A program made the position numbers and the translations under genes. The notes under the pieces are model-generated. The model worked only from the letters and a program-made list of their open reading frames with translations. It was not told where the DNA came from and ran no database searches. This document shows, piece by piece, positions 20,533 through 58,840 of a stretch of DNA of 64,000 nt (position 1 is its first letter; each line of letters begins with the position of its first letter). Source of the DNA: Euzebya rosea (GTDB lineage: Bacteria > Actinomycetota > Nitriliruptoria > Euzebyales > Euzebyaceae); contig NZ_PGDQ01000004.1 in NCBI RefSeq assembly GCF_003073135.1, positions 112,363-176,362 on the forward strand. Direction: 5' to 3'.

Positions 20533-21018
20533 GTGATCGAGTACCTCGTCGGGTACGCCCGTCTGCTGGCCGGCGACCAGCGCCCCTTCGACGAGACGGC
20601 CTGGCGCGACCTGATCCGCCGGGACGTGGCCCGGGCGAACCGCGTGGCGTCGCTGCAGAACCACGACGTCATCGCACACGACGACGGCCCACCACGGTCG
20701 TTGTCGTCGCTCTCCGCCCCGACGGTGGTGATCCATGGGACCGCCGACCCGCTGTTCCCGCTTCCCCACGGACAGGCGCTCGCCGAGGCGATCCCCGGCG
20801 CGAGGCTGCTTGGACTCGAGGGTGCCGGACACGGCGTCGACCGAGCCGACTGGGCGGCGATCGCGAGGGCGGTCGTCGGCAACACGACACCGGCCACGAC
20901 CCGGGGACCCGCGGATTCGGCAATCGAGGGCGCACGGCGTGGTTCGGGGGAGGTGTCCGGGGGCATTGCTCGTGCACCCGAAGACGGCACGAGCGACCAC
21001 CCCGGAGGACCATCATGA
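20533..21018 (+). pseudogene. alpha/beta-hydrolase remnant (C-terminal half)
   Basis: The frame from GTG 20533 gives only the cap and C-terminal part of an alpha/beta hydrolase: the strand APTVVIHGTADPLFP with the acid residue, and LEGAGHGVD with the catalytic His. The N-terminal half with the GxSxG nucleophile is missing, and upstream sequence directly joins the ABM gene. The frame then runs on for about 45 residues of unrelated sequence to stop inside the next gene's start. I read this as a deletion remnant. Confidence 0.6.
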
Positions 21019-21254
21019 GCACGATCGCACAGCCCATCGAGGACGAGGTCATCGAGCGGACCCTGCGGGCCGTGGTCACGACGGAATCCGGCTCGACGTA
21101 CCGCCTGGACGGGGACCGTGTCGTGCTCGACGGCCCCGGCGAGCAGCCCTACCAGGAGTTCGTCCTGGTGTCCCTCGACGGCGCACGGCTGCTCTACACC
21201 GACGGCGAGCGGCTCTACCGGTCGAGCGAGATCGTCACGCTGTCAGGCGTCTGA
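21015..21254 (+). CDS. 79-residue protein, paralogue B
   Basis: Same length as the protein at 18,560 and near-identical from LRAVV to SSEIV (for example YRLDGDRVVLDGPG and EFVLVSLDGARL). GGAGGACC precedes ATG 21015. The N-termini differ. The two copies lie 2.2 kb apart in the same direction, around the HxlR/DUF899 group, suggesting local duplication. Function is unknown. Confidence 0.8.
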   Translation: MSTIAQPIEDEVIERTLRAVVTTESGSTYRLDGDRVVLDGPGEQPYQEFVLVSLDGARLLYTDGERLYRSSEIVTLSGV

Positions 21255-21317: not shown

Positions 21318-22832
21318 TCAGTCCCACTGCACCCCGTTCCAGCCCCAGCCGTTCCAGCCCCAGCCGTTCCAGCCCCAGCCGTTCCAGCCCCAGCCGTTCC
21401 AGCCCCACCCGTTCCAGGCATCGCCGTTCCAGCCCCAGCCGTTCCAGCCCCAGCCGTGCCAGCCCTCACCGTTCCAGCCCCACCCGTTCCAGGTGTTGCC
21501 GTTCCACCCCCACCCGGTCCACTGGGTGTCGTTCCAGACACCGTCGTTCCAGGCGGTCCCTGATGACGACTCGACGGCCCAGGCGGCCGAGTCGAACGCC
21601 ACGCCGTGGATGTCCTGCTCACCGGTCAGTGCCACGCCGTCCACGCTCAGCGTCGACGATCCGCGCGAGGCGTCGATGGACCCGGTTCCCGTGCTGGGCA
21701 GCCACGTCTGCGGACCGTTGGCGCTGCCGAAGTACGTCGCGTCCCAGATGTTGAGGGTCGGGCCGATGTGGCTGCTGGACGCGGCCTCGATCAGGCGGGC
21801 CTTCACTTGGTCGGGCGACAGCGAGGGGTCGTACTGCAGCATCAGGGCCACTGCACCGCCCACGATGGCCGCCGCCTGGCTCGTCCCGTTCCCGCGGAAC
21901 AGGTCACCGGGCTGACGTGCATCCGGATAGGTGGTGTCGAGGTACCCGCCCGGCACGGCGGCCGACACGATGCCGACGCCCGGGGCGTAGACGTCGGGCT
22001 GCCGGCCGTCGGTGCCGGCCGGGACGAAGCTCGGGACCTCGTCGTCGCGGACTCGCCACGTGCCCTGGGTGTCGACGGCGCCGACGGCGATGACATACGG
22101 GTTCGTCGCCGGGGTGGCCAACCTCGGGGACGCCTGGCCGGTGTTGCCGGCGCCGACGACGACGGTGATGCCGTGGCGCCACGCGCTCTCGACAGCGTGG
22201 GAGAGCGGGTCGATCCGTGGGTCCTGCGTGCTGTCGGTGCCGTAGGCGAGCACCAGGACCCGGATGTTGTGCTCGTGGCGGTGCTGGACGACCCAGTCGA
22301 TCGCTGCGATGACCTGCGTGACGTCGACCGCGCCGTCGTGGGCGCCGACCTTGAGCGACACGAGGTCGGCGTCGGGGGCGATGCCGAGCGCATCGGCCCG
22401 GTCGGACGTGATGATCCCGGCCAGATGGGTGCCGTGCCCGTAGACGTCGTAGTGCCGCGCCTCCTCCGCCTGGCTGTCGAGGGACAGGTCGGGGCCGTGC
22501 CACACGTCGGTCAGCCCCGTGACCGGGGCGACACCGGTGTCGATGAGGGCGATGCCGATGCCGTTCCCGGTGAGGCCATCGTCGTGCAGGAAGCTGGCGT
22601 CGATGGTGTCGGCGACGTGCTGGAGGGTGGCGTGCGTTCCCTCCACCGACCAGCCGATGCCCTGGCCGTTCCCGTTGTCGACGGAGGTGGTCGGGTCCTG
22701 CGTGGTGGGTTTGCCCTTGCCACCGGCGGCAAGCGCCGGACCTGCGGCGGACATGGCCAGCACGACTGCGAGGAGAAACGGAACGAGACGGGTGCGCAAG
22801 GTGAGGAACGTCATCTGAACCATGTTCGACAC
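21318..22832 (-). CDS. secreted S8 subtilisin-type protease with Trp/Gly repeat tail
   Basis: A 504-residue exported protein (signal about 12-36). The catalytic triad is intact: Asp98 in LIDTGV, His133 in YGHGTHLAG and Ser318 in GNGTSQAAA. After the protease domain comes a linker and then about 70 residues of WNGWGW-type pentad repeats to the end, ending VQWD. Such tails are known in actinobacterial secreted subtilisins but their role is unclear, perhaps wall binding. The start could be GTG 22832 or an ATG at 22823 or 22814; none has a clear ribosome site. Confidence 0.9.
   Translation of the reverse strand: MSNMVQMTFLTLRTRLVPFLLAVVLAMSAAGPALAAGGKGKPTTQDPTTSVDNGNGQGIGWSVEGTHATLQHVADTIDASFLHDDGLTGNGIGIALIDTGVAPVTGLTDVWHGPDLSLDSQAEEARHYDVYGHGTHLAGIITSDRADALGIAPDADLVSLKVGAHDGAVDVTQVIAAIDWVVQHRHEHNIRVLVLAYGTDSTQDPRIDPLSHAVESAWRHGITVVVGAGNTGQASPRLATPATNPYVIAVGAVDTQGTWRVRDDEVPSFVPAGTDGRQPDVYAPGVGIVSAAVPGGYLDTTYPDARQPGDLFRGNGTSQAAAIVGGAVALMLQYDPSLSPDQVKARLIEAASSSHIGPTLNIWDATYFGSANGPQTWLPSTGTGSIDASRGSSTLSVDGVALTGEQDIHGVAFDSAAWAVESSSGTAWNDGVWNDTQWTGWGWNGNTWNGWGWNGEGWHGWGWNGWGWNGDAWNGWGWNGWGWNGWGWNGWGWNGWGWNGVQWD
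21333..21500. repeat. 15-bp tandem repeats encoding the GWGWN tail
   Basis: The plus strand repeats a 15-bp unit (CCAGCCCCAGCCGTT and close variants) about ten times inside the subtilisin gene. Period 15 equals five codons, matching the WGWNG protein repeat. Slippage could change the copy number. Confidence 0.85.
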
Positions 22833-22924
22833 GCAGGGTAGTGTTCCTGAGCAGTACGTGAGGAAAAGTTCTCGCGGATGGTGATCGTGGCTCGCCCGAC
22901 GGCCGTCCGAGTGGTCCCGGACGC

Positions 22925-22956
22925 ACGCTGGCCCACGGTCACCCGTGGGCCAGCGT
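22925..22956 (-). terminator. strong hairpin, probable original glnA terminator
   Basis: ACGCTGGCCCACGG and CCGTGGGCCAGCGT form a 14-bp perfect stem with a TCAC loop (plus-strand reading). Read leftward it follows the glutamine-synthetase-like stop codon by 14 nt, the usual distance for a terminator. A U-run is lacking. Confidence 0.6.
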
Positions 22957-22970
22957 GGAACGTGCAGGTA

Positions 22971-22995
22971 TCAGATGTCGTAGTACAGCTCGAAC
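22971..22995 (-). other. attachment-site core: 3' end of a glnA-like gene
   Basis: On the minus strand the triplets ending at 22971 read Phe-Glu-Leu-Tyr-Tyr-Asp-Ile-stop. This is the C-terminal signature of type-I glutamine synthetase (EFELYY or EFALYYD then a hydrophobic residue). Upstream the frame breaks: the next codon is Val instead of the expected Glu, and a stop appears six codons before the Phe codon. Only the tail is therefore present. With an integrase 2 kb inside, the simplest reading is an att site at the prophage edge. Confidence 0.6.
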
Positions 22996-23109
22996 ACACA
23001 CAACCCTCACCCGACGTGCTGACCTGCGACAACACCAGACGGACTGGCTCCCAGAACCCCCCACGAGACACAGTTAGGCTCCCCGATAGGCTCCCAGCCG
23101 CCCCCCGCC

Positions 23110-24405
23110 CTACGACGTTGCGGCGGTCAGTTCTTCTAGACCGATGTCGCCGTCGGCGTAGGCCTGGATCAGGATGTAGGGCGGCATCAGAGGATCCATG
23201 AAGCGGTACTTGCGCCATTTGCCTGGATCCGTCAACTGCGTCAGGACGTTGCCGCGAGCGCCCCCCGGGGTGGAGAAGTCGCCGAGGTGCTTGGAGAAGC
23301 TCGAGATGCCCTTGTGCACGCCTATCGAATCGAGTGCAGAGCGGACGTCGGAGGTGGTGAAGCGGCCCAGGACGTCTTTTCGGGCAAGCGCGCATGCAAG
23401 CAGGACAGGACGGTAGAGGGTGTCACGGTTGGATGCGGTTGCACGGGTGTAGGCCTCGACCACCGTTTGCTGGAAGTCATCCAACGCGCGCACCAGCGCC
23501 TTCTGGAGCTGCTCCAGGCCGATGTGGTCGCTGAGATCCTCCGCAGCATTCCTCGCCGCAGCCTGAGCGATGAGGTGGGCGTAGTTGGGAAGCCCCATGC
23601 ACAGCTTGGCGGCCGCAGCGACGAACCGGGAGTCAACAGTGAAGGCACACTTCTTCATGCCACGTTCGACAATCTCACGGAGCTCGCTCTCCGCCATCCG
23701 CGGCATCTCGATCTGCACCAGCGACCGGACCACTGAAGCGTGACCCTTCATCAGGTCGTCGACATTGCGCCCAACGCCAACCAACACCACGGTTACCGGA
23801 GTCTGGTCATCGGCAAGGATCTTGATGAGATCTGCCATCAGGAGCGGCGTGCTCTCGTCTCGGACACGGTCGAACTCGTCGATGGTCACCAATACGCTGC
23901 CGCCGCTGGCCGTCAGTCGACGCAATGCGCGCTTGACATGGGACGGGCTCGGATTCTCATCGTTCTGGAGCAGCATGAGCTGTCGCACGGGCATTGGTTC
24001 GACGCGGGAATCGCCGGTGAACCCCGGTGCCTTCACCTCGTAGCGCAGCTGGACATCCAGCAGCATCTGATCCCAGATGGTGGCGAAGTTGTCGTTGCTG
24101 TGGCACGTGGCCCACATCTGCATGGTCTGGGTCGCCTGCTGACCGCCGAACTTGGCCAAGGACGTCTTGCCAACGCCTCGCTCACCGAAGATGATGGCGT
24201 GCTGGCCCGCCTGGGCAATCACGTCGTCGATACGAAAGATCTGGCGCGTCCGACCTGCGAAGAGGTCACGGGTTTGGACGGGACTTGCCGGACTGAAGGC
24301 CCTGCTGATCGCGGCCAGCCGGCGCATCACCCACTCCGCGCTGACGTCCGGATCGGCATCTGCTGAAGGCGGGGGAGTCAAGGGGCTGTCGTCCGAAGGT
24401 GTCAT
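23110..24405 (-). CDS. AAA-type ATPase, prophage cargo
   Basis: This 431-residue protein has a Walker A (GERGVGKT, residues 74-81) and Walker B with following acid (VLVTIDEFDRV, about 168-178). A sensor-like GVGRNVDDL and a C-terminal helical/winged region of about 150 residues follow. The layout resembles ORC/CDC6- or MoxR-like stand-alone ATPases rather than a phage replication helicase. It is the gene nearest the att site, where lysogenic cargo is common, and lies 35 bp downstream of the HEAGH peptidase gene. A ClpX- or FtsH-like role with that peptidase or a defence role is possible but unproven. Confidence 0.75.
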   Translation of the reverse strand: MTPSDDSPLTPPPSADADPDVSAEWVMRRLAAISRAFSPASPVQTRDLFAGRTRQIFRIDDVIAQAGQHAIIFGERGVGKTSLAKFGGQQATQTMQMWATCHSNDNFATIWDQMLLDVQLRYEVKAPGFTGDSRVEPMPVRQLMLLQNDENPSPSHVKRALRRLTASGGSVLVTIDEFDRVRDESTPLLMADLIKILADDQTPVTVVLVGVGRNVDDLMKGHASVVRSLVQIEMPRMAESELREIVERGMKKCAFTVDSRFVAAAAKLCMGLPNYAHLIAQAAARNAAEDLSDHIGLEQLQKALVRALDDFQQTVVEAYTRATASNRDTLYRPVLLACALARKDVLGRFTTSDVRSALDSIGVHKGISSFSKHLGDFSTPGGARGNVLTQLTDPGKWRKYRFMDPLMPPYILIQAYADGDIGLEELTAATS

Positions 24406-24440: not shown

Positions 24441-24956
24441 TTAGGTGTTCACCCCGTCGTCTTGACCCTCCGACCACTCGTATACCCGGTCGGCCACGAG
24501 GGTGTTTGCGATCGCTTGCAGCTGACCCTGCGACTCGGCCAGCAGGCCGTAGGCAGTCGCGACCGCCCAAGCGATCCCAAGGACCAGATCCTTGTACTCC
24601 TCGTCCTCGGGAAGGGTCGTGCCATCGACGACGCCGCTGAGCAGCTTGCGCAGATCCTCGATGCTCAAGGTGAATTCCGGAATCCAGTCGGTCACACCCT
24701 CCCACAGTTGCGTCATGTCGGTGTGCAGCCCGTCGGGAGGGTCCGCGCCTGCTACCTCGGCGAGAAAGCCAGCGACCGCGACACTTGCTCGCGTCGACGG
24801 CGATATCCCGCCAGGTATGACCATGGCACCCCTCCACCCCTCCCCCGATTCGGAGACCGTGACCCTCCCCGACTCGACCCCGAGCGCGCGAGCGACAACC
24901 ACGTGGCCAGCCTCGTGCCGAGCCGTGGATTCGAGGCTCTCCCGGCTGCACGTCAT
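24441..24956 (-). CDS. M41 (FtsH-peptidase)-like HEAGH protein
   Basis: This 171-residue protein has STARHEAGHVVVARALGV at the start (HEAGH at 14-18), the zinc motif of the FtsH peptidase family. A later HTDMTQLW sits where FtsH has its third zinc ligand Asp. Unlike FtsH it has no AAA domain or membrane helix, so only the peptidase half is present. Its ATG overlaps the integrase stop (ATGA), and the next gene encodes an AAA ATPase. It could be a stand-alone phage peptidase acting on a repressor or host protein, or a split partner of that ATPase. Confidence 0.75.
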   Translation of the reverse strand: MTCSRESLESTARHEAGHVVVARALGVESGRVTVSESGEGWRGAMVIPGGISPSTRASVAVAGFLAEVAGADPPDGLHTDMTQLWEGVTDWIPEFTLSIEDLRKLLSGVVDGTTLPEDEEYKDLVLGIAWAVATAYGLLAESQGQLQAIANTLVADRVYEWSEGQDDGVNT

Positions 24957-26194
24957 CGCTGCCCGAACAGCTCGTCCATCGCCTGGGCTGCTTCTGCCTG
25001 ACTTGCCTTGGTGGCGCGGGCGTACACCTCCAGGGCAACCTTGGCGGACCGCCAACCGAGGATCTGCATCACCTGGGGGAGCGGGACCCCCTTGGCCAGC
25101 AGGAACGACGCCGCGGAGCGGCGCAAGGCGTGCGGGGTGGCACGGGGGATGCCGGCCCGCTCGCAAGTGGCCGTCAGGTGCCGGCGGACCTGGTCGGTCC
25201 AGACCGGCCCGCCGTCCCTGCCGGACAGCACCAGGTCCCACCGGCCATCCCACACCCCGTCGAGGGCCAGACGCCGCTCCAGCTGTGCCCTGCGGACGGC
25301 ACGGAGCTCACCGACGACGAACTGGGGCAGGACGATCCTGCGGCTCTCACCCGCCCGGCGCCGCTTGAGCCGCGGCTTCATCGCCCACGACATCTCCCCC
25401 GTCCGCGGATCCCTCGCCCGGACCAGCTGGTTGCGCAACGTCATCGACGGCTCGTCACCGTCCAGGTCGACATCCGACCACTGCAGCGCGACCGCCTCCC
25501 CCACCCGAAGGCCCAACGGCAACCCGACGACGTAGAAGGCCCGGAACGGATCCGACGTCGGGACCGCAGCCAGCAGCTGCTCGGCCTCCTCCAGCTCCAA
25601 CCATCGCTGGTCCTCCACCGGCCCCGGCGGCAGGTCGACCAGCTGGGCCGGGTTGTCACCGATCCGCTTGTAGCGGACCGCGACCTTCAACGCTGCACGC
25701 AGCTGCACCAGCACCGTCCGCTGCGTCGAACCGGCCAGTCCCTTGCCGGCATCGACCCCTCGCCGTCCCTGCGGGCCCCGGCCACGACGATCGTGCCGGC
25801 CCAGCCACACCAGCAGGTCCTCGATGTCCTCCGCAGTCAGCTGCGACAGCTTCACGTGACCGATCCCCGCGCTGACGTGCCCGACGAGGTTCTGCCGGTA
25901 CGACCGCCACGTCCCCGGATCCATCGCGCCCCGGTCGACCTGCCGCTGCAGATGCGTGTCGCAGAACCACACCAGGTACTCGCCGAGGGTCTCCCGCGGC
26001 TTGCCGCCCCGCCGCGGCCCCCGATTTCGGGCCTCCTCCAACAACGCCCACGCCGCCGCCTCGCTGTCGGCCTGCACCCGGAACCGACGACGCTTGCCAC
26101 CGGGCCCCGCCGGCGCCGGCGCCTGCCCCTTCCACACCCCACGCGACGCGTCGAAGAACACCGACCCCGACCCACGCGGCCGCCGCGCCGTCAT
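24953..26194 (-). CDS. int: tyrosine-type site-specific integrase
   Basis: A 413-residue recombinase with all three domains: N-terminal arm-binding (1-60), core-binding SAM-like (65-185) and catalytic (190-400). Catalytic residues are Arg230 (GLRVGEAVAL), Lys near 273-277, His355 and Arg358 (HALRRSAA), Trp381 in the second His position and the nucleophile Tyr391 (LEVYARAT). It catalyses integration between phage and host att sites. The gene is joined by ATGA overlaps to the lipoprotein upstream and the HEAGH peptidase downstream. Confidence 0.95.
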   Translation of the reverse strand: MTARRPRGSGSVFFDASRGVWKGQAPAPAGPGGKRRRFRVQADSEAAAWALLEEARNRGPRRGGKPRETLGEYLVWFCDTHLQRQVDRGAMDPGTWRSYRQNLVGHVSAGIGHVKLSQLTAEDIEDLLVWLGRHDRRGRGPQGRRGVDAGKGLAGSTQRTVLVQLRAALKVAVRYKRIGDNPAQLVDLPPGPVEDQRWLELEEAEQLLAAVPTSDPFRAFYVVGLPLGLRVGEAVALQWSDVDLDGDEPSMTLRNQLVRARDPRTGEMSWAMKPRLKRRRAGESRRIVLPQFVVGELRAVRRAQLERRLALDGVWDGRWDLVLSGRDGGPVWTDQVRRHLTATCERAGIPRATPHALRRSAASFLLAKGVPLPQVMQILGWRSAKVALEVYARATKASQAEAAQAMDELFGQR

Positions 26195-28544: not shown

Positions 28545-28919
28545 CTACTCCCTGCCGCCGGTGAAGTGCAGGTACAGCGCCACCAGCGCCCGGGCGGCCT
28601 GCCGGTCCAGCCGCGGGTCGGAGTGGACGAACTCGCTGAACGACGGCCGCCGCTGCATCATCAGCTGCTGCTCGGCGGTCAACCGTCCCGACACCTCCAG
28701 CAACTCGAGCGGGTCGAGCTCCAGAGCGTGAGCCAGCTTCTTCAGCCGCTCTTCCCCAGGGGTCTTGATCCGACCGGATTCCACGTTGGACAGCCAAGGC
28801 TGCGAGACGCCTGCCCGTCGTGCGGCCTCGGTGACTGTGAGCCCAAGACGATCGCGCGCTTCCATCAGCTGCGCACCCAGGGTTGTTGTCGACGTCACAC
28901 GCCCAGCATCGCTGGGCAT
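28545..28919 (-). CDS. XRE/Cro-CI-type regulator, probable prophage repressor
   Basis: This 124-residue protein contains a complete HTH_3: LGAQLMEARDRLGLTVTEAA, then RAGVSQPWLSNVESGRIKTP and LKKLAHALELDP. A C-terminal helical tail has RPSFSEFV. It faces leftward, away from the rightward Cro-like gene at 29093, as in a lambda-type switch. The annotated ATG 28919 lies within a palindrome. A GTG at 28898 (7 residues in) is an equally good start and would leave the palindrome upstream as an operator. Confidence 0.85.
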   Translation of the reverse strand: MPSDAGRVTSTTTLGAQLMEARDRLGLTVTEAARRAGVSQPWLSNVESGRIKTPGEERLKKLAHALELDPLELLEVSGRLTAEQQLMMQRRPSFSEFVHSDPRLDRQAARALVALYLHFTGGRE

Positions 28920-33851: not shown

Positions 33852-34848
33852 ACGACGCCCCCGGGTCCGGCTGGCCGACAAGGTCATCGGCCCCATCATG
33901 CGACGGGTCATCGTCCGCGCCGGCGAGCTCGGCATCATCGACGTCCGCGGCCGCGTCCTCCTCGCCGTCCTCGCCCTCACCGTCTCGTGGAACCGGGTGG
34001 AGGACACCGTCGACCTCCGCCAGGTCATGTACTACGCCGGGCTGTGCCGCGACCAGGGCGGCCGCGACAACAAGCACGGCCGGCGGATGGCACGCGAAGC
34101 GCTCTACGAACTCCGGGAGGCCGGCATGATCACCCTCGTCGAACCCGACCAGCGACTCGGGTCGTGGTGGATCGCGGTGCCCGACTGGGCCCTCGGCACC
34201 CCCGACGAAGCTGTGGACAACCCGGCCGGACAGCCTGTGGACAACCCTGGTGAAGGGGGTCAATCGCCCCCCTTCACCCGACCCGAGAGGGGGCGATCAG
34301 CCCCCTCAAGGGGGTCAATCGCCCCCCTTCAAGGGGGTCAATCACCCCCCGACTACGTACCGAAGAGTTCCGAAGGAATCCCGAGTCGCGCGCCCGCGCG
34401 CACGCGAGGCCCCACCCGTCCCGTCCAGCTGCAGCTCGCCCTCGTCTGGATCCGCGAACTCACCGGCGACGGCCTCGACACCGACGACCCGATCTGCACC
34501 CTGCTGCTCGAGCTCGACGAGGCGGACCATCAGGCACTCGCCGACCTCGCCCGCGAACTCGCCGACCCCGCCGTCGCCCACCTCCTCGACGACGACGACC
34601 TCGCCGACTGGATCCCCGAACTGCTCCACGAGCTCCACCCCGACCGCATCCCCCCACCAGCCGGCGTCCAACAACTCGCCACCATGCACGGACCCCTCGC
34701 CCACCGGCTGCTCGCCGCCGCAGCCCCCACCGCCCGCCAACGCCTCAGCGAGATCTCCGGCGGCCTCGTCCGACCCATGTCCGACCGGCCCGACGACCCC
34801 GTCATCCGCCCCTACCTCGCCGACGCCATCACCAACCTGACCGGATGA
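33844..34848 (+). CDS. replication-initiator-like winged-helix protein containing the origin
   Basis: A 334-residue protein (GTG 33844). Residues 1-115 form a winged-helix-type domain (VIGPIMRRVIVRAGELGIID, ARRALYELREAGMI-like helices), as in phage O- or DnaD-type initiators. A low-complexity linker (about 122-170) follows, whose DNA carries DnaA boxes and iterons. Then comes a C-terminal helical acidic domain. Having the origin inside the initiator gene is the lambda O arrangement. The family is inferred from layout, not from a confident match. Confidence 0.6.
   Translation: MPERRPRVRLADKVIGPIMRRVIVRAGELGIIDVRGRVLLAVLALTVSWNRVEDTVDLRQVMYYAGLCRDQGGRDNKHGRRMAREALYELREAGMITLVEPDQRLGSWWIAVPDWALGTPDEAVDNPAGQPVDNPGEGGQSPPFTRPERGRSAPSRGSIAPLQGGQSPPDYVPKSSEGIPSRAPARTRGPTRPVQLQLALVWIRELTGDGLDTDDPICTLLLELDEADHQALADLARELADPAVAHLLDDDDLADWIPELLHELHPDRIPPPAGVQQLATMHGPLAHRLLAAAAPTARQRLSEISGGLVRPMSDRPDDPVIRPYLADAITNLTG
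34212..34350. other. probable phage replication origin (DnaA boxes plus iterons)
   Basis: Two exact TGTGGACAA boxes (34212-34220 and 34236-34244), the GC-rich form of the DnaA box, are followed by four inverted-repeat units of the type GGGGG-TCAATCG-CCCCCC. Their G-runs start at 34255, 34289, 34310 and 34333. Unit 1 has 9-bp arms (TGAAGGGGG/CCCCCTTCA). Spacing of 34, 21 and 23 bp and near-identical sequence mark them as iterons for the initiator protein encoded here. Confidence 0.7.
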
Positions 34849-37379: not shown

Positions 37380-38399
37380 TCACAGGCTGTTGAGGTGGTC
37401 GGACTCGATGGCGTGAGCCCGGTCGTGGGTGTCGTGCCGGTCGGTACCGGCGACGGTGACGACCCGGTCGGCGAGCTGCCGGTCGTACCCGCCGGCGGCG
37501 GCCCGCCCGACGAGGTAGACGGTGCCGACCCGCTGGCGGGCGGCGAGCGACCCGACGTGGGCGTGGAGGTGGGCGGCAAGGCCACGGGCGATCCGCTCGT
37601 CGGCGGCCACGCCGTCGGCGTAGCGGACCGCTTCGCGGAGCGGGGCGGGCAGGTCGGGCACGACCGGCTGGCGGGCAGCGGCCATCGCGGCGTAGACGGC
37701 CTCCATGGCAGCGATGTCGCCGGCGCCCACCATCCCGGAGGTCGGCAGGCCGAGGGTGGCCTGCCAGGCGCGGGTCGCGGCGGCGGTCAACGGGCCGAAG
37801 TCGCCATCGACGACCAGGTCGGCACCGCCGGCGTGGACCAGCTGCTGCTGCCAGACGACGACCGCGTCGCCGGCGTCGCCCTCCATCAGCAGCGCCCCCT
37901 CGGGCCGGACCGGCCCCCCGCCGGCGGTCGCGCCGGTGTAACGGGGCCGGAACACCACGCTGGTGACCATCGCACCGAGGTCTCGCCGCTTGCGGAGCAC
38001 CGCACCGCCGTTGGTCTGGGAGCCCGCGGAGGAGGTGTTGCCCTCGATGGTCTGCCAGACGGTGCCGCCCAGGTGCTGCTCGAGGATGATGTAGTGCTCG
38101 ATGCGTCCCTTCCCGCCGGGGAAGTCCACGACCGCATGGTCGCCCGGGCGGGCGTCGGCCAGCCGGACGGTCCGGCCGGCTGCGGCGGCGTCGACGGCGA
38201 CCCGTGGTGTGTAGGCGGACCGCGAGACCGGTTCGAGCCCGGCGAGGATCTGCATGGCGACGCCGAACGTGGCGCACCAGGCGTAGCCGTTGGCGTGGCC
38301 GGCGATCGCAGCGAACGGCTGCCGGTTGGAACCTGCAGGCGACTCCGTGACCCCCAGGTGGGACCGGGCGTGGGCGAGCAGCTGGTCAGGGGTAGTCAT
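37380..38399 (-). CDS. endolysin: CHAP amidase/peptidase, peptidoglycan-binding domain, CWB2-like tail
   Basis: A 339-residue lysin. The CHAP-type domain (1-150) keeps Cys42 (YAWCATFGV), His102 (IEHYIILEQ) and Asn121. A peptidoglycan-binding-1 domain (about 172-225) has VDGDFGPLTAAATRAWQ. The C-terminus (about 290-335) reads GTVYLVGRAAAGG, then VVTVAGTDRHDTHDRAHAI, close to a CWB2 repeat. It should cleave peptidoglycan cross-links at lysis. ATG 38399 was chosen because AAGGGAA lies upstream. Confidence 0.85.
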   Translation of the reverse strand: MTTPDQLLAHARSHLGVTESPAGSNRQPFAAIAGHANGYAWCATFGVAMQILAGLEPVSRSAYTPRVAVDAAAAGRTVRLADARPGDHAVVDFPGGKGRIEHYIILEQHLGGTVWQTIEGNTSSAGSQTNGGAVLRKRRDLGAMVTSVVFRPRYTGATAGGGPVRPEGALLMEGDAGDAVVVWQQQLVHAGGADLVVDGDFGPLTAAATRAWQATLGLPTSGMVGAGDIAAMEAVYAAMAAARQPVVPDLPAPLREAVRYADGVAADERIARGLAAHLHAHVGSLAARQRVGTVYLVGRAAAGGYDRQLADRVVTVAGTDRHDTHDRAHAIESDHLNSL

Positions 38400-38427
38400 G
38401 ACGGGGGTTCCCTTCTTCGGGCATGGC

Positions 38428-38477: not shown

Positions 38478-38930
38478 TCAGGTCCGCATGGATGCGGCGA
38501 CCTGCTGGGCCACGACGTGGGTGGCGTGGCGGGCCAGTTCTCGGCGTCGCCGGTCGTAGCGCATCGGTTCGTCGTGGACCTTGGGCCGACGGACCCGTGC
38601 TGCAGGGTCGCTGGGCAGGTGACCCTCCTCGAAGGCGTACCGGTACCACAGCCGGACCGTGGAGATGCGCCGGGCCACGGTTGCCGGCTTCAGGTGCCGG
38701 TCCTCCTCGTGACGCATCCACAGCTCGATGTGGGCACGCTGCACCTCGAGCGGGTCGACGTCATGGGTGGCGAGGAACCGCGACCAGAGCCGCAGGTCGA
38801 TGGTGTAGGCCTCGCGGGTGGTGCGCTTGTAGCCGGCCAGGAACCCGGCGGTGATCATCTCCGCCACGTTGTCGGTGAGCGGCATGAGTGTGATGGCGCC
38901 GTGCGGGCGCGCGGGAGTACCGTCGTTCAT
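38478..38930 (-). CDS. truncated tyrosine-recombinase-like protein (core-binding domain only)
   Basis: A 150-residue protein (ATG 38930 with GGAGG 8 nt upstream). Residues 20-120 match the SAM-like core-binding domain of tyrosine recombinases (YKRTTREAYTIDLRLWSRFL, then PATVARRISTVRLWYRYAFE and DPAARVRRPKV). It stops where the catalytic domain would begin. The strong ribosome site suggests it is translated. It could be a decayed integrase or a DNA-binding protein derived from one. Confidence 0.7.
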   Translation of the reverse strand: MNDGTPARPHGAITLMPLTDNVAEMITAGFLAGYKRTTREAYTIDLRLWSRFLATHDVDPLEVQRAHIELWMRHEEDRHLKPATVARRISTVRLWYRYAFEEGHLPSDPAARVRRPKVHDEPMRYDRRRRELARHATHVVAQQVAASMRT

Positions 38931-39237
38931 GATCAAGACCTCCACGTCTTGGTCCGGGCCCGGGGTGTTGCAAGCACCGCCGGGCCGCTTCATCTGGTTG
39001 ACAGGACCACGCTAGTCACCGGTGAGGGCCATGGGAACGGCCGTTCCAGGATTGTGGACAGCTATTCGTGGTCCGCACCGTCCCGCCAGGGCGGCCGGCT
39101 CCTGCAGGTATCCGTCGCTGGCCGGCTCGTGGGAGCGGCCCGACCTGCGCCTACGCGGCGCGGACTGCGCTAATCACGGACGGCCGAGGACGGCCCCATC
39201 AGGTGTGCGGATACCGCAAATAATATTTGCGCGTCGG
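38931..39237. promoter_or_regulatory. 307-bp gap with two palindromes
   Basis: No gene is seen here. It holds the perfect 14-mer GGAACGGCCGTTCC (39034-39047) and, within an AT-rich patch unusual for this DNA, GCAAATA-A-TATTTGC (39216-39230) just after the stop of the gene at 39238. Either could be an operator, and the second could be a recombination or termination site. Confidence 0.4.
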
Positions 39238-40590: not shown

Positions 40591-41102
40591 GCGCTAGGGT
40601 TCCTCGACGGTCGCGGGTACAGTCCGGTGTCGGACAGGCTCACCGGTTCGAACCGGACCTCCAGGGTGAGGCGGCCGATGTGGGCGGTATTGGAGCCGAG
40701 CCTTTCGACCTGAACGGCGAGGGTGTTGAGTGCCATCGCTGACACGGCGATCGGCACGACCGCCTTGCCGACGAACGTGGCTCGCTCCCCACTGGCCGCC
40801 GGAGTGGTGCAGGACCCATAGGCCATCGACTGAGCGACACCGTTGAGCAGCAGGGTGGCATTGACTCGGGTGGCAGTACCCCCCGAGATGGCATAGCCGG
40901 CGATGTCGACGAACATGCGACCGTCGAAGGGCCACACGACCTTCAGGTCGGTGGCCGTGGACGGGTTTTCCTGAGAGGTGATGTCGAACTGGAAGGGGGC
41001 GGAGGCAACGTCGAGGAGCGACCCACCAGCGGCGATCGAGGTGGACGAGTCCGGAACCTGCCGCAGTCCGTAGACCGTCGACGCGAAGGGTGTGGCGATC
41101 AC
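40587..41102 (-). CDS. tail-tip or fibre-associated structural protein
   Basis: A 171-residue beta-rich protein (FQFDITSQENPSTATDLKVV; LLLNGVAQSM; IAVSAMALNTLAVQVERLGS) resembling small jelly-roll tail or receptor-binding proteins. GTG start overlaps the M14 gene's stop. Assignment rests on position after the fibre genes and composition. Confidence 0.5.
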   Translation of the reverse strand: MIATPFASTVYGLRQVPDSSTSIAAGGSLLDVASAPFQFDITSQENPSTATDLKVVWPFDGRMFVDIAGYAISGGTATRVNATLLLNGVAQSMAYGSCTTPAASGERATFVGKAVVPIAVSAMALNTLAVQVERLGSNTAHIGRLTLEVRFEPVSLSDTGLYPRPSRNPSA

Positions 41103-42250
41103 GTGGCCTCCAGCCAAGTCAGTAGGTAGGTGGAGATGAACCCGCAGTACAACCTCAGCGCTGCCTGGGTGGTGCGATGGCGAGCCGACCCCCCCACGGA
41201 GCCCTCAAGGGTGGAGGACGCCTCCACGGTGATCGCTGCGCCATCGAGGCGACCGGCGACGTGTCTGGCGTAGTAGCCGGCCCAGTTTCCCAGCAGGGGC
41301 TTGCCCTGGTTGGGTTGGGCAACCGAGTACGTGGCCGCCGGGGTGTAGACCCCCAGCCAGGTCCGCAACGCTCTGGAGGCAAGATCTCTCCGGCTACCGA
41401 CGACGATGTGGTTCGTTGGCGGGACGATCTGCAGTTCGTTCGCAGGGCTGGAACCGAAGTTGTGGCAGTCGATGACGCAGGAACTGGAGCGCGCGTCGAT
41501 CAGGTCGCGGATGAAGTCGGTCTCAGGCTCCGAGAGAGCCGCGGACCCCTTGGCCGCCAGGGTTGCGCCGAGAGCGTCGTCGGCTGGCACGAACGGGGTC
41601 CACAGGAACGGGTAGTTGCGGTTCGGGTCGACGTCGTTGGCGTTGAGCCGGCCCGGTTCGTTGGGGGAACCGGGATAGGCCCGGTAGCCGTAGGGGTTTG
41701 CGGTGGGTACCCACTCGATCTGGATGCGTGACCGCAGGTAGCGCATCGTCGGATGGTTGGACTGCACGAACCCCTGGAAGAACCGCATCGCCGCGTGCTG
41801 GGACAGCACTTCCTCACCGTGCTGCCCCGCGACCAGCAACACCCGACGGCCAACGGCTGGGCCGAACCGGTAGGAATACATGTTGTTGACCCCGTCGGAA
41901 CAGAGCCCTCCGTCGGTCTTGACCACCGTACCTGCGCCGATCTCGGTGGCGAACAGGGCGTCGATGCCTGTGATCCAGTCGGGGTAGGTCTGGGCCAGCC
42001 ACGATTCTCCGTAGACGTTGGCAGTGTCGAACTCTGCCCAAATCGCCAGCGGGTTGCGGAGGTGTGCGTCGAGGCCGAGGTACCCATCGGCGGCATCGTC
42101 CTGCGCCAAATATGTGGCGATATCTTCCTGCCGACGTGCCTCGATGACCTGCTCGACGGCGAGGGCGAGGTCGGCCAGGTTGGTGCGGCCGAGGCCGGCA
42201 ACGTCGTCGCCGCCCGGGTAGGGCAGCTCGTGGATCGGGGTGGTGGCCAT
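41099..42250 (-). CDS. tail-associated protein fused to an M14-type carboxypeptidase
   Basis: A 383-residue protein. Residues 1-40 (TPIHELPYPGGDDVAGLGRT) match the attachment start of actinophage tail fibres. Residues about 110-375 form an M14 zinc carboxypeptidase: His144 and Glu147 (GQHGEE), Asn210-Arg211 (DPNRNYPF), His263 (IDCHNFG) and Glu343 (TVEAS). All key residues appear present. It may trim peptide stems or surface peptides during adsorption; the substrate is unknown. Confidence 0.75.
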   Translation of the reverse strand: MATTPIHELPYPGGDDVAGLGRTNLADLALAVEQVIEARRQEDIATYLAQDDAADGYLGLDAHLRNPLAIWAEFDTANVYGESWLAQTYPDWITGIDALFATEIGAGTVVKTDGGLCSDGVNNMYSYRFGPAVGRRVLLVAGQHGEEVLSQHAAMRFFQGFVQSNHPTMRYLRSRIQIEWVPTANPYGYRAYPGSPNEPGRLNANDVDPNRNYPFLWTPFVPADDALGATLAAKGSAALSEPETDFIRDLIDARSSSCVIDCHNFGSSPANELQIVPPTNHIVVGSRRDLASRALRTWLGVYTPAATYSVAQPNQGKPLLGNWAGYYARHVAGRLDGAAITVEASSTLEGSVGGSARHRTTQAALRLYCGFISTYLLTWLEAT

Positions 42251-43875: not shown

Positions 43876-45033
43876 TCAGGCGGCGATGCCGGTGATCACG
43901 GTCGGGGTGTCGGCATCCAGGGGGGCGGGCAGCCCGGCTGGGCCGTCGAGCTGCACGTCGGCGGTGCCGCCATCGAGGGTGAGCGCGGTGACGTGGTCGA
44001 CCCCGTCGGCGGCGTCGATCCGGGCGGCCAGCTCGAGGTAGCGGACGGTCCGGTCGTCACGCCAGGCGGGCGGCTCCTCGTCACCGCCGGCCCATCGTCC
44101 GGGCGACAGGTAGATCGCCGCGGCCAGGGTGGCGTTGGCCACGACGACCGCCGGGTCGTAACCGGTCAGAACGGTGACGGTGAACGCCACCGCCAGCGGG
44201 GTGTAGGTGGGCGGGCCGACGCGGACGACGAAGTTGGTTTCGCGTTCGGCCTGCAGGTAGGCGTCGACCGTCGCCGTGACGCCGCCGGATGGGACATGCC
44301 CGTCTGCGTCGACGATGCCGACCCAGACCGTCCGGGCGTTGTCGTGGGTGTCGGTGTCGGGGTCGTAGCCGTCGAGGGCGACGGCGCGGTGGACCCCGTC
44401 GATGCGTCGGGCGAGACGGGCGAAGTCGTCGGGTCGGATCGCGCGTGGGGACATGAGCTCGAACTCGTCGGTCAGCCGGCTCAGGTAGGCCTCGGTGGTC
44501 TCGGCGTCGGTGCCGCCCGACGCGACGCTGTCGGCGACGATGCCGGCGACGACCGCGGGCGCCTGGACCAGCGTCATCGTGCCCGGGCCGAGGCCGTTTG
44601 CATGCACGCCGGCCAGGACGGCCTGCATGGTCACCTCCACGGTGGTCTCGTCGGCGTCGACGACGCTGTCGGCGATCGTGGTGAACGCTGTGAACGTGCC
44701 GTCGCCGGTCGCGAACGCGGCGAGGGTGCCGGCGGGGATGGTGTGGCCGTTGGTGTTGGCGACGGTGATGGTCGCCTCGATCGTGGCGGGGGTGGCGGCG
44801 CCGCGGGCGATGGCGACCTGCTGGGACCCGAACCGGTCGAGCTCGGCGTCGGTGCGGGCGATCGCCACGACACGGGTCTCGCGTTGCAGCCGCACGAACT
44901 CCTCCAGGAGGGCGGCGTCCAGCGAAGCGGTGTCGAGGACCCACCGGCCGGCGGTGCGCTGCTTGATCCGCTCCACTGCACGGGTCAGCAGGCTGGTGTG
45001 GTCGGTGTCGAGCGGCAGCTGGGTGTAGGCCAT
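43876..45033 (-). CDS. baseplate assembly protein J
   Basis: A 385-residue protein with gpJ layout: an N-terminal helical part, PAGTLAAFATGDGTFTAF, then SGGTDAETTEAYLSRLTDEF (the family signature), RIDGVHRAVALDGYDPDTDT and a C-terminal ferredoxin-like region. gpJ forms the baseplate wedge in contractile tails. Confidence 0.9.
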   Translation of the reverse strand: MAYTQLPLDTDHTSLLTRAVERIKQRTAGRWVLDTASLDAALLEEFVRLQRETRVVAIARTDAELDRFGSQQVAIARGAATPATIEATITVANTNGHTIPAGTLAAFATGDGTFTAFTTIADSVVDADETTVEVTMQAVLAGVHANGLGPGTMTLVQAPAVVAGIVADSVASGGTDAETTEAYLSRLTDEFELMSPRAIRPDDFARLARRIDGVHRAVALDGYDPDTDTHDNARTVWVGIVDADGHVPSGGVTATVDAYLQAERETNFVVRVGPPTYTPLAVAFTVTVLTGYDPAVVVANATLAAAIYLSPGRWAGGDEEPPAWRDDRTVRYLELAARIDAADGVDHVTALTLDGGTADVQLDGPAGLPAPLDADTPTVITGIAA

Positions 45034-46891: not shown

Positions 46892-47559
46892 GGGATCCTC
46901 AGCTCCTGGCCGGCCTGGATCTGCCGGGGGTCGACGATGCCGTTGAGGGCCGCGATCTCGGTCCAGTGTTCCCAGCCGCCGAGCAGGGCCGCGGCGATCG
47001 ACGACAGCGTGTCGCCGGGCCGGACGACGTAGGTCTGCTCCTGGCCCGCGTCGGTGTCGGTGGTGGCGGCGTCGGCCTCCTCCGCAGCGGTCAACGCCAG
47101 GTCGGGGTCGACGGCCTCGACGAGGTCGATGGTGACCTGCAGCCCGGTGGGATGCCCGTCGGCACGGGTGTCCATCGGCCCCCACACCATCCGGTCGACC
47201 TGCCATACCTGCTGCTGCCACATGCCCCAGCGGATCCGCAGCCGCGGCGGGGCGACACCGGCGTCGGGGTTGCCCTGCCATCCGCGGATCAGGTCGTACT
47301 CGCCGAGGACCGACCCGCCGGCGGGTGTCCGGTTGATCTCGATGTCCAGACGACGCTCGTGGGCGTCGTTGCCGACCCACACCCGCGCGGTCTTGCGGTG
47401 CGGACGCGCCACCGTCTCCCAGATCGGATCGCCACCCTGACGCTGGATCTCCTCCGCATCGAAGCCGAGAAGCTCCAGCGTCGGGCCGCCGTCGAGGTTC
47501 TCCACGACCATCAGCTCCGGCGGCTTCTGTCGGGCCCAGTACTCGATCGTGGCCGACAT
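46888..47559 (-). CDS. LysM-containing tail (gp53-like) protein
   Basis: A 223-residue protein with a C-terminal LysM (YVVRPGDTLSSIAAALLGGW, then ALNGIVDPRQI). The N-terminal part contains DIEINRTPAGGSV and LRIRWGMWQQQVWQVD. It links the tape measure end to the hub in contractile tails. Confidence 0.85.
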   Translation of the reverse strand: MSATIEYWARQKPPELMVVENLDGGPTLELLGFDAEEIQRQGGDPIWETVARPHRKTARVWVGNDAHERRLDIEINRTPAGGSVLGEYDLIRGWQGNPDAGVAPPRLRIRWGMWQQQVWQVDRMVWGPMDTRADGHPTGLQVTIDLVEAVDPDLALTAAEEADAATTDTDAGQEQTYVVRPGDTLSSIAAALLGGWEHWTEIAALNGIVDPRQIQAGQELRIP

Positions 47560-50009
47560 CAGCGTCGGGCCCGCAAGTGGTCGACCTCGTCGACGACGAG
47601 CTGGGCGAGCGCACGCACGTCCGGGTCATTCGCCGCCACAGTCCGACCACCGATCGTGACAGGACCGTGGAACTGGACGCTGGTGCCGGCCTCGCCGAGG
47701 GAGCGGGGTGCGGCGGCGACGTCGATCCGGCCGGCGGTCAGCACGGGTGTGGCGTCGAACGCGGCGGTGTCCACGCCGGCACCGGAGAGGGCTTCTCGGG
47801 CTCCTGCGGGCAGTTGCACGGGTCCGGTGGGGGTCACGCCGGACAGGGCGACGCCGGCACGGCGGGCTGCGGTCTCGACCTCGCCGAGACGGCTGACGAT
47901 CGCGTCGTAGGTCTCCTCCGTCAGGCGTCCCTGCTCGACCTGGCGGCGCAGCTCCTCCCGGAAGTCGGCGCCGGAGGTCTCGCCGTCGTTGTGGGCGCCG
48001 CGAAGGTCGACGAGGGCACCCTCGAGGTCCAGGGCGGCGGTGGCGGCGTCCTCCTGGGCGGCTTGGATGTCGGACTGGGTTGAGGTCCCGTCGGCCTGGA
48101 CCGTGTCGAGTCGTTCCTGGGCGTCGGCCAGGTTGCGCTGGGCGGTCGTGGCGGCAAAGACCGGGTCGACGGCGGCGCGGGCCTGGTCGAGGCGGGCCTG
48201 CATCGCCTGGGTGGTCAGCTCGATGGCCGAACGGGTGGTGTCCTCGCTGCCCCGCAGCCGGTCCAGCGTCCCGATCCACCCGTCGTGTCCGGCCATCGCA
48301 CGGGCGGCTGCGGCGGCGGCGGTGTCGGTGGCGTCTGCGGTGTCGCGGGCGGCGGCGGCGGCAAGCCCCTGCGCGGCGGCGTGGGCGGTGTGATGGGGGA
48401 TGCCCATCTCCACGAGTTCCTGGTAGCGGACGGCGGCGTCGGTGGCGTTGGACTGGTCGATCTGCAGCTGGCGTTGCTGTTCCTGCGCGCCGGTGAGGGC
48501 GTCGCGCTGGTCACCGAACACGCGGGTGACCGCGTCGATTGCCTCACGCTGGGCGTACAGGCCGCCCTCGAAGTCGCTGCCGGCGTCCAGGGCTGCGTTC
48601 AGCGCATCGTCGACCGCAGCGACGGCGTCTGTCTCGTTGCGGACAGCGGCGACGAAGGTGTCGGTGGAGATGCCGAGGGCAGCGAGGTCGTCGTACAGCT
48701 CGGCCTTGGCGATCGCGTTCTCGATCGTCGCCCGGGTGTTGTCGCCCAGCGCGCCGGAGTCGGCCTCCAGCGCCGCGGTGTAGGTCTCCAGACGCTGCTT
48801 GGCGTCCATGTGCCGGCTCATCAGGACACCGACGCCGACTGCGGCGCCGGTCAGTGCCAGCCCCCACGGGCCGGTCATGAACACCGCAGCGGACATGGCG
48901 GCGGTGCGGAGCCGACCGACGTTGGTGATCAGCGCGCCGATGCCCTGGATGGCCGGGCCGGCACCGGCGGCCAGACCGGCGATCGCGAATCCGGCGTCGC
49001 TGAACGGGGCGATCGACGCCTCAGCCGAGGCCCATGCCATGCCGATTCGGTCGGACAGGGTCAGGGTCTCCGCGTGCGCGTCGGCGATGGTGTCGGTGGA
49101 CGTCAGCAGGGTCTGTCGCATCGCGTCGAGGTCGAACCGGCCCTCCTGGATGGCGCGGGACAGGTCAACGCCGGCGCGGGCCCCGAAGGTCTCCATGGCG
49201 ATGCCATTGGCCTCTGCGGCCGATCCGGCGTTCTCGATCTGCTCCATGACGTCGACGAGGGCCTCCTCCGGGTCACGCAGGTCGCGGGCCCACCGCGACA
49301 TCGCGACGCGCAGGCCACCCATGACCAGCTCGAGGTTGACACCCTCCTGCTTCCACTTGCCCATCAGCAGGGCGGCGTCCTCCATGCCGTAGCCGAGCTC
49401 GCGCAGCGGTGCGCCGTACTGGACGATGGTCTGGCCGAGCTCGTCGATGCTGGGGCCGGTCAGCTGGCTGATCCGAAACATCATGTCGAGGCTGTCGGAG
49501 GCCTGGTCGGTGGCGACACCCCAGTCACCGAAGGTGCGGCGGAGGGTGCCGACGTCCAGCTGGTTACCGATCTCGCCGACCTGGGCCATCTGGCGTGTCA
49601 GCTCCTCGAGATTCTCGCCGGTCGCCCCGAACCGGGTGTTGAGCTCCGCAACGATGTCGCCGAGCTCGCCCATGTCGGTACGCACCGATCCGGCGACGCC
49701 ACGAACGACGTCGGTCATCGCCTCCAGGTCGTCTCCGGTGGCGCCGGTGCCTGCCCGGATGGCCCGCTCCGCCTCGCCCCACTCCTGCGCGACCTCACGG
49801 AACCCCGCCGACAGCACCCCGGCGGCAGGCGTCACCCGGCGAGTCATCGTCGACCCGACCCGGCTCCAGCTCTCCCCGGCCCGTCGGGTGGATGCGTCGA
49901 CGTCGGCCGCGGCACGCTGCGTGTCGGACAGGGCTGCCTGGACGTCGCGGGTGGCGCCGACCACCTGGTTCTGGCCGCGGGCGATGAACTGGAAGAACAG
50001 GTCAGGCAC
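47559..50009 (-). CDS. tail tape measure protein
   Basis: An 816-residue helical protein (GTG 50009) with the PhageMin-type N-terminus (GDWGVATDQASDSLDMMFRI, IVQYGAPLRELGYGMEDAAL), hydrophobic stretches around 345-400 and long coiled coils. It sets tail length and acts in ejection; 816 residues would give a tail of roughly 120 nm by the usual 0.15 nm per residue rule. Confidence 0.9.
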   Translation of the reverse strand: MPDLFFQFIARGQNQVVGATRDVQAALSDTQRAAADVDASTRRAGESWSRVGSTMTRRVTPAAGVLSAGFREVAQEWGEAERAIRAGTGATGDDLEAMTDVVRGVAGSVRTDMGELGDIVAELNTRFGATGENLEELTRQMAQVGEIGNQLDVGTLRRTFGDWGVATDQASDSLDMMFRISQLTGPSIDELGQTIVQYGAPLRELGYGMEDAALLMGKWKQEGVNLELVMGGLRVAMSRWARDLRDPEEALVDVMEQIENAGSAAEANGIAMETFGARAGVDLSRAIQEGRFDLDAMRQTLLTSTDTIADAHAETLTLSDRIGMAWASAEASIAPFSDAGFAIAGLAAGAGPAIQGIGALITNVGRLRTAAMSAAVFMTGPWGLALTGAAVGVGVLMSRHMDAKQRLETYTAALEADSGALGDNTRATIENAIAKAELYDDLAALGISTDTFVAAVRNETDAVAAVDDALNAALDAGSDFEGGLYAQREAIDAVTRVFGDQRDALTGAQEQQRQLQIDQSNATDAAVRYQELVEMGIPHHTAHAAAQGLAAAAARDTADATDTAAAAAARAMAGHDGWIGTLDRLRGSEDTTRSAIELTTQAMQARLDQARAAVDPVFAATTAQRNLADAQERLDTVQADGTSTQSDIQAAQEDAATAALDLEGALVDLRGAHNDGETSGADFREELRRQVEQGRLTEETYDAIVSRLGEVETAARRAGVALSGVTPTGPVQLPAGAREALSGAGVDTAAFDATPVLTAGRIDVAAAPRSLGEAGTSVQFHGPVTIGGRTVAANDPDVRALAQLVVDEVDHLRARR

Positions 50010-51153: not shown

Positions 51154-52599
51154 TCAGGCGATGGTGGAGCGGACGAAGTCCAGGGCGATGGTCTCCGCGG
51201 TCCCGGCGAGGGTGTAGGGCAGCTGCGCGACGATGCGGCCCTGACCGATCACCGTCGCGGTGGTGCCGGACAGGTCGACGTCGTAGACGGCGTCGGCCGG
51301 GTCGCCCGTTGGGCTGTAGAAGGCCCGCTTGGCGGCGTTGCGGTCCATCATCGACAGAAGGGTCCCGCGGAGGCCGGACAGCTTGAATCCGCCGGGCCCG
51401 TCGATGGGGGGCCCGTTGAGGAACTCGTGGGCGATCTCCTTGCCCTCCGCGATCAGCTTCATGGCGGTGCGGACGTCGGCGAGGAACGCCCACTTGCCCG
51501 GGTCGCCGTTGGGCTTGGGCTGGTAGGTGTTGCGCCACGTGGCCATGTGGATGCCGTGACGGCGGTCGGAGAGGACCACGTTGACGCCTGCCTCCCGCAG
51601 GGTGGTCTGCTCGGTCTCGGTGAACGTCTGCTCGACGTCGATGACGATGGAGGTCTCCGCGAGCCGGCCGTGACGGCCGGCGGGCGAGTTGATCGGATGG
51701 GCGGTCGCGTCGTTGCGTGACGCCAACGCCGCCGCAAGGGCCGACGGGGGCACGAGACGGCGGGTGCCGCCGGCGATCCCTCGGACCCACAGCCAGTTGC
51801 CGAACACCGGCTTGCGGATCTCCGCGGCGGCATGCTGAGTCGCCGCGATCGCCGCCAGTGCGGCCGCGCCGGTGCCGGCGGGGACGTCCAGCAACGGGGT
51901 CCGGTTGGTGATCGACCCGTCGCAGTGGGCCCGGATCGCCGCGCGGGCCGCATCGGTCGTGCCGAGCGGGACGACGACCTGGCCGGGACCGTAGTCCTCG
52001 GTGATGCGGGCCAGGTCGGCAGCGATGGTGTCGTCGTCGACGTTGGCACGGTCGTCGTCGCCGTCGGCCAGCGCCGTCGCGGCGACCACCGCCGGGTTGT
52101 CGCCGGCCTCTGCGGTCCCGCGCACCCAGCTGGAGTCGACCAGCCGTGCCTCGGCATCGGCCGGAGAGGCAAGGTCGACCCACCGTTCGACCTCGACGTC
52201 GTCGTAGGACACGACGAGGGTGAACAGGCTGCCGGTGGAGCCGGCGACCACCTGGACCTTGATCCGGTCGCCGTGCCCGCCCGGGTCGCGCGCGTCGACG
52301 GTCAGCGCATCGGCGGTGTCGCCGTCGACCAGCGTCAGCGTCGACCGTGCCGCCGACGGGCCGACACGGCGGAGCAGCCAGGCGCCCCCGAGTCCGTCGG
52401 CGAAGGCGGTGTCCAGCCAGTCGTAGGCGAGACCGTAGGTGACCCGGTCACCATGGGAGCGGACGGCCTCGTCGAGGTTGCGGACCCACGTCGGTTCGGT
52501 GGGTCCGCGCTCGAACAGGTCGACGACGAAGACGACGCCGGTGTTGGTGGCTGGACCGGATGCCGCCTCGACGGCCCGGTCGGTGATCTCCACTGGCAT
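51154..52599 (-). CDS. tail sheath protein
   Basis: A 481-residue protein with the phage tail sheath features: PATNTGVVFVVDLFERGPTE, GLAYDWLDTAF, PGQVVVPLGTTDAARAAIRA, and the conserved C-terminal domain with NVVLSDRRHGIHMATWRNTY and VRTAMKLIAEGKEIAHEFLN. It establishes that the prophage belongs to a contractile-tailed (myovirus) type. Confidence 0.93.
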   Translation of the reverse strand: MPVEITDRAVEAASGPATNTGVVFVVDLFERGPTEPTWVRNLDEAVRSHGDRVTYGLAYDWLDTAFADGLGGAWLLRRVGPSAARSTLTLVDGDTADALTVDARDPGGHGDRIKVQVVAGSTGSLFTLVVSYDDVEVERWVDLASPADAEARLVDSSWVRGTAEAGDNPAVVAATALADGDDDRANVDDDTIAADLARITEDYGPGQVVVPLGTTDAARAAIRAHCDGSITNRTPLLDVPAGTGAAALAAIAATQHAAAEIRKPVFGNWLWVRGIAGGTRRLVPPSALAAALASRNDATAHPINSPAGRHGRLAETSIVIDVEQTFTETEQTTLREAGVNVVLSDRRHGIHMATWRNTYQPKPNGDPGKWAFLADVRTAMKLIAEGKEIAHEFLNGPPIDGPGGFKLSGLRGTLLSMMDRNAAKRAFYSPTGDPADAVYDVDLSGTTATVIGQGRIVAQLPYTLAGTAETIALDFVRSTIA

Positions 52600-58814: not shown

Positions 58815-58840
58815 CTGCGGGCCTCCTGCTCGTCGGTCGG

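Follow-up and report, generated by a model that had tools for sequence, protein, structure and literature searches.

A temperate prophage in the 3' end of the glutamine synthetase gene glnA of Euzebya rosea and the probable wider use of this site by actinobacterial integrases

Phage 21 and e14, located in the icd gene of E. coli, are prophages that occupy the 3' end of a metabolic gene and restore it. The prophage analysed here resembles them in its predicted attP carrying the gene 3' end, in the gene being functional after integration and in the tyrosine integrase; it differs in the target, which is glnA in actinobacteria, in the core, which is only 21 bp long and spans the last seven codons, and in the identical protein end. 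The PAISt island of Streptomyces turgidiscabies sits in the 3' end of bacA through a tyrosine recombinase and shows a duplicated gene end at the far junction; its crossover was assigned to an 8-bp palindrome inside a 141-bp duplication and the island is conjugative (PMC4057263). Both are actinobacterial elements with a tyrosine recombinase, a protein-coding gene 3' end as target and a duplicated end far off, whereas the Euzebya element is a phage at glnA and PAISt a conjugative island at bacA. In the AICE survey the tyrosine integrases were found almost all at tRNA genes and glnA is absent from the text (PMC3218068). The AICEs share with the present element a tyrosine integrase beside one att site and the preference for gene 3' ends, but their tyrosine integrases use tRNA genes almost always while the Euzebya prophage uses glnA.

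The surveys of actinobacterial prophages and ICEs examined made no mention of glnA. In the TIGER/Islander catalogue, coding sequences hold 43.4% of the roughly 1.75 million islands, and no passage was found that names glnA as a hotspot (PMC12424338). The glnA islands are probably among its rows, and as coding-sequence targets are common in island catalogues, they may be catalogued without comment. No report of glnA as attB or integration site was found in literature searches, in which the subscription literature was incompletely covered. Gene-restoring integration at a gene 3' end is thus a known principle, while the glnA site and the dedicated integrase clade described below appear undescribed.

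The window, that is the whole stretch of 64,000 nucleotides analysed (G000:C4:112363-176362), carries on the minus strand at 22994-22971 the sequence TTCGAGCTGTACTACGACATCTGA, which reads FELYYDI followed by a stop codon. The preliminary description had given the same reading, with the coding frame broken upstream, and the frame 5' of this orphan tail was indeed seen to be phage sequence and not GlnA. The 25-mer 22971-22995 occurs once in the window, with 0 occurrences expected even at 3 mismatches. The whole-genome search with the tail stretch revealed one other copy, C4:178947-178971, identical at 24/25 bases, and this sole genomic partner is the 3' end of a full-length glnA. The gene is located immediately right of the window, where a leftward glnA had been predicted (G000:C4:178947-180365, minus strand, window-equivalent 66585-68003), and encodes a product of 472 aa with a Gln-synt_C match at E = 6.5e-138. 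Its last 25 bp repeat 22971-22995 as anticipated, with one mismatch; the exact block common to both copies is ATGTCGTAGTACAGCTCGAAC, which reduces the expected 25 bp to 21 bp (22975-22995 and window-equivalent 66589-66609).

The two tail copies have the same orientation and a separation of 43,614 bp, so that the gene 3' end is directly repeated at both ends of the element (22971-22995 and window-equivalent 66585-66609). The single mismatch lies next to the stop codon and consists of ATC versus ATT; both codons encode Ile and the GlnA protein is therefore unaltered. The target gene after integration is complete and in frame, ending PHEFELYYDI-stop, and the C-terminus given by the phage-borne tail is identical to that of the orphan tail. 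The proposal that an identical phage-borne tail keeps GlnA intact was hence borne out, GlnA being restored exactly. The features of the locus are given below; the phage genes were assigned by family search.

22924-22957, minus strand: presumed original glnA terminator hairpin, now downstream of the prophage integrase-side transcript
22971-22994, minus strand: original glnA 3' end, now displaced, an orphan tail reading FELYYDI-stop
22975-22995, minus strand: attL core, 21 bp identical to the glnA 3' end; extended by the stop codon, the repeat spans 22971-22995 (24/25)
22971-64000, no strand: part of the prophage within the window, continuing to window-equivalent 66585 (G000:C4:178947), where glnA begins
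23018-23095, plus strand: putative phage attP arm, with the CTGACCTGC motif at 23019 and GGCTCCC arm-type sites at 23046, 23077 and 23089
23110-24405, minus strand: AAA/STAND-type ATPase gene (phrog_6841), between attL and the integrase
24953-26194, minus strand: 413-aa tyrosine integrase (Phage_integrase PF00589, phrog_1), the recombinase presumed to target glnA
28545-28919, minus strand: HTH (Cro/C1-type) regulator, candidate repressor
37380-38402, minus strand: endolysin with peptidoglycan-binding domain
43876-45033, minus strand: baseplate wedge protein
47559-50009, minus strand: tail tape-measure protein
51154-52599, minus strand: tail sheath (contractile tail)
54714-55757, minus strand: major capsid protein (Phage_cap_E)
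57327-59054, minus strand: portal protein
58841-60397, minus strand: terminase large subunit
63034-63732, minus strand: small serine resolvase/invertase-type recombinase in the prophage, 232 aa, partial Recombinase-domain match
Window-equivalent 66528 and 66540, beyond the window: GGCTCTC/GGCTCCC of the other putative attP arm

The gene calls and family searches also revealed scaffold and tail tube genes. The gene set of a contractile-tailed phage is represented by head and portal, packaging (terminase), tail (sheath, tape measure, baseplate) and lysis functions, and the element between the repeats is a complete-looking contractile-tailed temperate prophage. The tyrosine integrase is located 2 kb from attL, with GGCTCCC clusters close to the core at both ends. 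On the plus strand GGCTCCC occurs five times in 43.8 kb, and at four of these sites an att core is no more than 120 bp away; the motif is likely to be an arm-type integrase site. There is no tRNA or tmRNA gene within the window and the att core lies in glnA, so the element falls outside the tRNA/tmRNA-targeting class. The nearest proteins among sequenced phages were capsid proteins of Arthrobacter phages (about 34% identical) and integrases at 26-30% identity; the free attP of this prophage was not found, the integrase matches in sequenced phages being only at that level, and genome_contigs and viral_contigs gave no close relatives of the integrase.

Some further genes and repeats were noted in the element. 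The ATPase (23110-24405, minus strand) could be cargo, for example a defence gene, or an integration partner. A short ORF of the late region (38478-38993, minus strand) resembles a tyrosine integrase only in the N-terminal SAM-like domain and lacks the catalytic domain, and a protein of the structural region (41099-42250, minus strand) matches a phage zinc carboxypeptidase family (phrog_4722). The 24-bp repeat AAGGGGGTCAATCGCCCCCCTTCA, itself largely self-complementary, is present three times at 34253-34354.

The presence of a prophage in the glnA 3' end, as suggested earlier, was substantiated by the repeat pair, the full-length glnA and a prophage-free relative. The suggested comparison with such a genome was carried out using G003 of the same genus, in which glnA is uninterrupted and 95% identical, and both flanks are collinear without the 43.6 kb. 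The nearest left-flank gene common to both genomes (21015-21254) has its G003 homologue about 215 bp from the glnA stop. At the corresponding place G003 lacks the 1.7 kb directly left of attL, which include the subtilase gene 21318-22832, and because of this difference the pre-integration junction is supported by gene order and not base by base. The subtilase-family (Peptidase_S8) gene, on the minus strand and adjoining attL, may represent a separate gain.

A temperate contractile-tailed phage has almost certainly been integrated into the last codons of glnA (attB) by a tyrosine recombinase with restoration of GlnA, the phage hairpin most likely ending the glnA transcript. In the proposed mechanism the recombinase, predicted from its family and position to be the integrase 24953-26194, would carry out the crossover between the 21-bp attP core and its identical counterpart within the final codons of host glnA. 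The gene body would thereby gain the phage-borne tail and stop codon, and as attP carries both, GlnA would be encoded unaltered. The old tail, stop codon and terminator hairpin would have been moved 43.6 kb off to the other junction, and both the tail and the hairpin were located at attL, as the preliminary description had proposed.

The resemblance of 22971-22995 to glnA could be due to chance or to a decayed second glnA copy unrelated to the prophage, and further GlnA-family matches do lie in the vicinity, at C4:101119-102117 and, as a partial match, at C4:111560-112000. The match however extends over only about 25 bp and ends abruptly where phage sequence begins, the glnA 3' end is its only genomic partner, the interval is missing in G003 and the same tail pairing is found in other genomes; the genome-wide partner search and the empty site of G003 refute such an origin, the probability of which is negligible. 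Integration at the glnA codons being retained, insertion by the small serine recombinase (63034-63732) or by homologous recombination in place of the tyrosine integrase is very improbable. The serine recombinase gene is only about 2.9 kb from the glnA-side end, but its product of 232 aa has the size of a resolvase or invertase with only a partial Recombinase-domain match, and because of this size it is not the likely integrase. A short identity core at a gene 3' end with arm-type repeats fits tyrosine integrases, and all other glnA-tail integrases found were of the tyrosine type.

The preferred reading, integration by the tyrosine integrase, also bears on the termination of glnA, as the prophage might deregulate the gene through removal of its terminator. 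The hairpin after the orphan tail is real and consists of CACGCTGGCCCACGG-TCAC-CCGTGGGCCAGCGTG (22924-22957), with a 4-nt loop and a perfect stem of 15 bp and not 14 bp as described before. The 100-nt stretch containing it gave z = -4.5 against shuffles; the hairpin lacks a T-tract and goes unflagged in the consensus terminator scan. The earlier statement that this hairpin is cut off from glnA holds for the position, now 43.6 kb away, but the consequence drawn from it is unlikely. A strong phage hairpin (GGCCTCCTCGA-loop-TCGAGGAGGCC, about window-equivalent 66479-66504) stands about 80 nt past the restored stop codon of glnA, ahead of the first phage gene, and this gene is codirectional with glnA; the hairpin stretch gave z = -3.7 against shuffles, and a T-tract is absent here as well. 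As neither Euzebya hairpin has a T-tract, we infer termination at both from their structure and position. TTTTT follows the replacement hairpin downstream of glnA in the Streptomyces thermodiastaticus element, where a very strong hairpin also comes after the displaced tail. Loss of glnA termination, and with it deregulation, is unlikely because the phage brings its own hairpin between the new stop and the first phage gene; glnA has probably kept its termination through a replacement hairpin carried on attP. This phage hairpin would most likely end the glnA transcript before the codirectional phage genes, and the old host hairpin would now end the leftward integrase-side transcript.

The use of the glnA 3' end by other integrases was analysed with an alignment of one integrase lineage (A1) as query, which gave 126 relatives in genome_contigs, of which 80 were kept (clade C). 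Among these best 80 of 126 relatives, 59 integrases are convergent with glnA and have their end no more than 250 bp from its 3' end, a count which is not phylogenetically independent and which describes clade C and not integrases generally, since the loci are the best matches to a query of glnA-adjacent integrases. No tRNA gene was found near the clade C integrases of the same best 80. The in-frame glnA end is kept in all 59 adjacent loci, and most of them show tandem 7-8-bp repeats, for example AGTCCGCA, just after the glnA stop. Two of the remaining loci are within 400 bp of glnA and four at 1.2-2.2 kb; a full tail is present at the integrase in two and a partial tail in two.

Besides Euzebya, 14 genomes were verified to carry the distal orphan tail, namely Streptomyces thermodiastaticus (26-bp exact repeat, 14.8-kb element), Mycobacterium colombiense (20-bp repeat, 20.3-kb element) and 12 more. 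These 12 came from 15 further genomes and have exact blocks of 18-34 bp at on-contig distances of 5-87 kb; of the three outside the verified set (G426, G428, G437), G426 and G428 show a suitable pair. The small elements of S. thermodiastaticus and M. colombiense carry terminase-small/D5-primase-like and prohead-protease genes, which suggests that they are phage satellites or small prophages.

The Euzebya integrase is only 25-29% identical to clade C members and does not belong to this clade. In a quick FastTree, which is approximate and in which the Euzebya integrase has a long branch, clade C formed one supported group with the Euzebya integrase outside, in a separate supported set; this position suggests that glnA has been adopted as a target more than once. 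The arrangement also differs, as 59 of the 80 clade C integrases abut glnA and the Euzebya integrase is at the far end from glnA, separated from attL by the ATPase gene. Four genomes of the same order (G001, G010, G011, G016) contain remnants of another tyrosine integrase family (clade B). These integrases are 54-77% identical mutually and to two viral contigs and 25-29% identical to the Euzebya prophage integrase; three of the four are directly after glnA, convergent, and one is about 7 kb downstream. As they look broken and their relatives outside the order are mostly not at glnA, clade B represents remnants in one order and not a phylum-wide rule. G017, another genome of the order, carries an orphan tail of 16 bp, and the same arm-type repeats lie close to each of its two tail copies.

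In the IMG/VR contigs L096, L097 and L108 the glnA tail is at the integrase gene with the glnA end attached. The viral contigs L098, L099 and L116 have the tail by the integrase, repeats on both sides and no glnA body; these tails appear attP-like, as an attP should look. The integrases with glnA tails belong to several lineages, about 33% identical or less over long alignments. The glnA 3' end is very likely a phylum-wide actinobacterial hotspot on which at least three or four integrase lineages have converged, one of them a large clade mostly dedicated to this site and carried by prophages, satellites or other islands in Streptomyces, Micromonospora, Nocardia, Mycobacterium, Rhodococcus and numerous further genera; each element would bring the codons that are restored and, where this was looked at, a terminator-like hairpin as replacement.

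The motif CTGACC[AT]GC was suspected to be a host feature, as it is present about 12 nt past the glnA stop in 7 of 42 relatives, all of one order. This was rejected, since the motif is also beside glnA-targeting integrases in other families and its reverse complement adjoins an integrase at a tRNA-Cys gene; being beside glnA-site and tRNA-Cys-site integrases alike, it goes with integrase att regions. The pattern matches in the AT-rich viral contigs L112-L114 had no glnA context and were treated as chance.

GlnA is central to nitrogen assimilation and its C-terminus is strongly conserved, which makes the last codons of glnA a dependable landing site; such a site would explain the convergence of unrelated integrases. 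For annotation, elements can be delimited by searching the region after an actinobacterial glnA for an orphan F-x-[LM]-Y-[YF]-D tail. For the genetic engineering of laboratory and industrial actinobacteria, the integrase family addresses a widely present site with predicted harmlessness to the gene, and some of the integrases of engineering interest adjoin attP-like sites. It also raises the question whether the terminator swap after glnA changes the output of the gene in lysogens.

Other loci with glnA-type ends were also observed. The viral contig L109 lacks a GlnA body but contains FSLYYDI-stop with a T-tract terminator after it, and possibly reflects the same strategy at a GlnA-family gene of another phylum, outside actinobacteria. 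Nocardia australiensis DSM 111727 has near-identical glnA-type integrases on several contigs (L211, L212, L213, L235, L241), some at glnA and others at orphan tails, and tandem or circular copies of an element are possible. Short tandem copies of the glnA end are present right after the stop in L073, L081, L090 and L095, for example GACATCTAG repeated or ...GACATCTGA repeated, and are possibly scars of past integration and excision.
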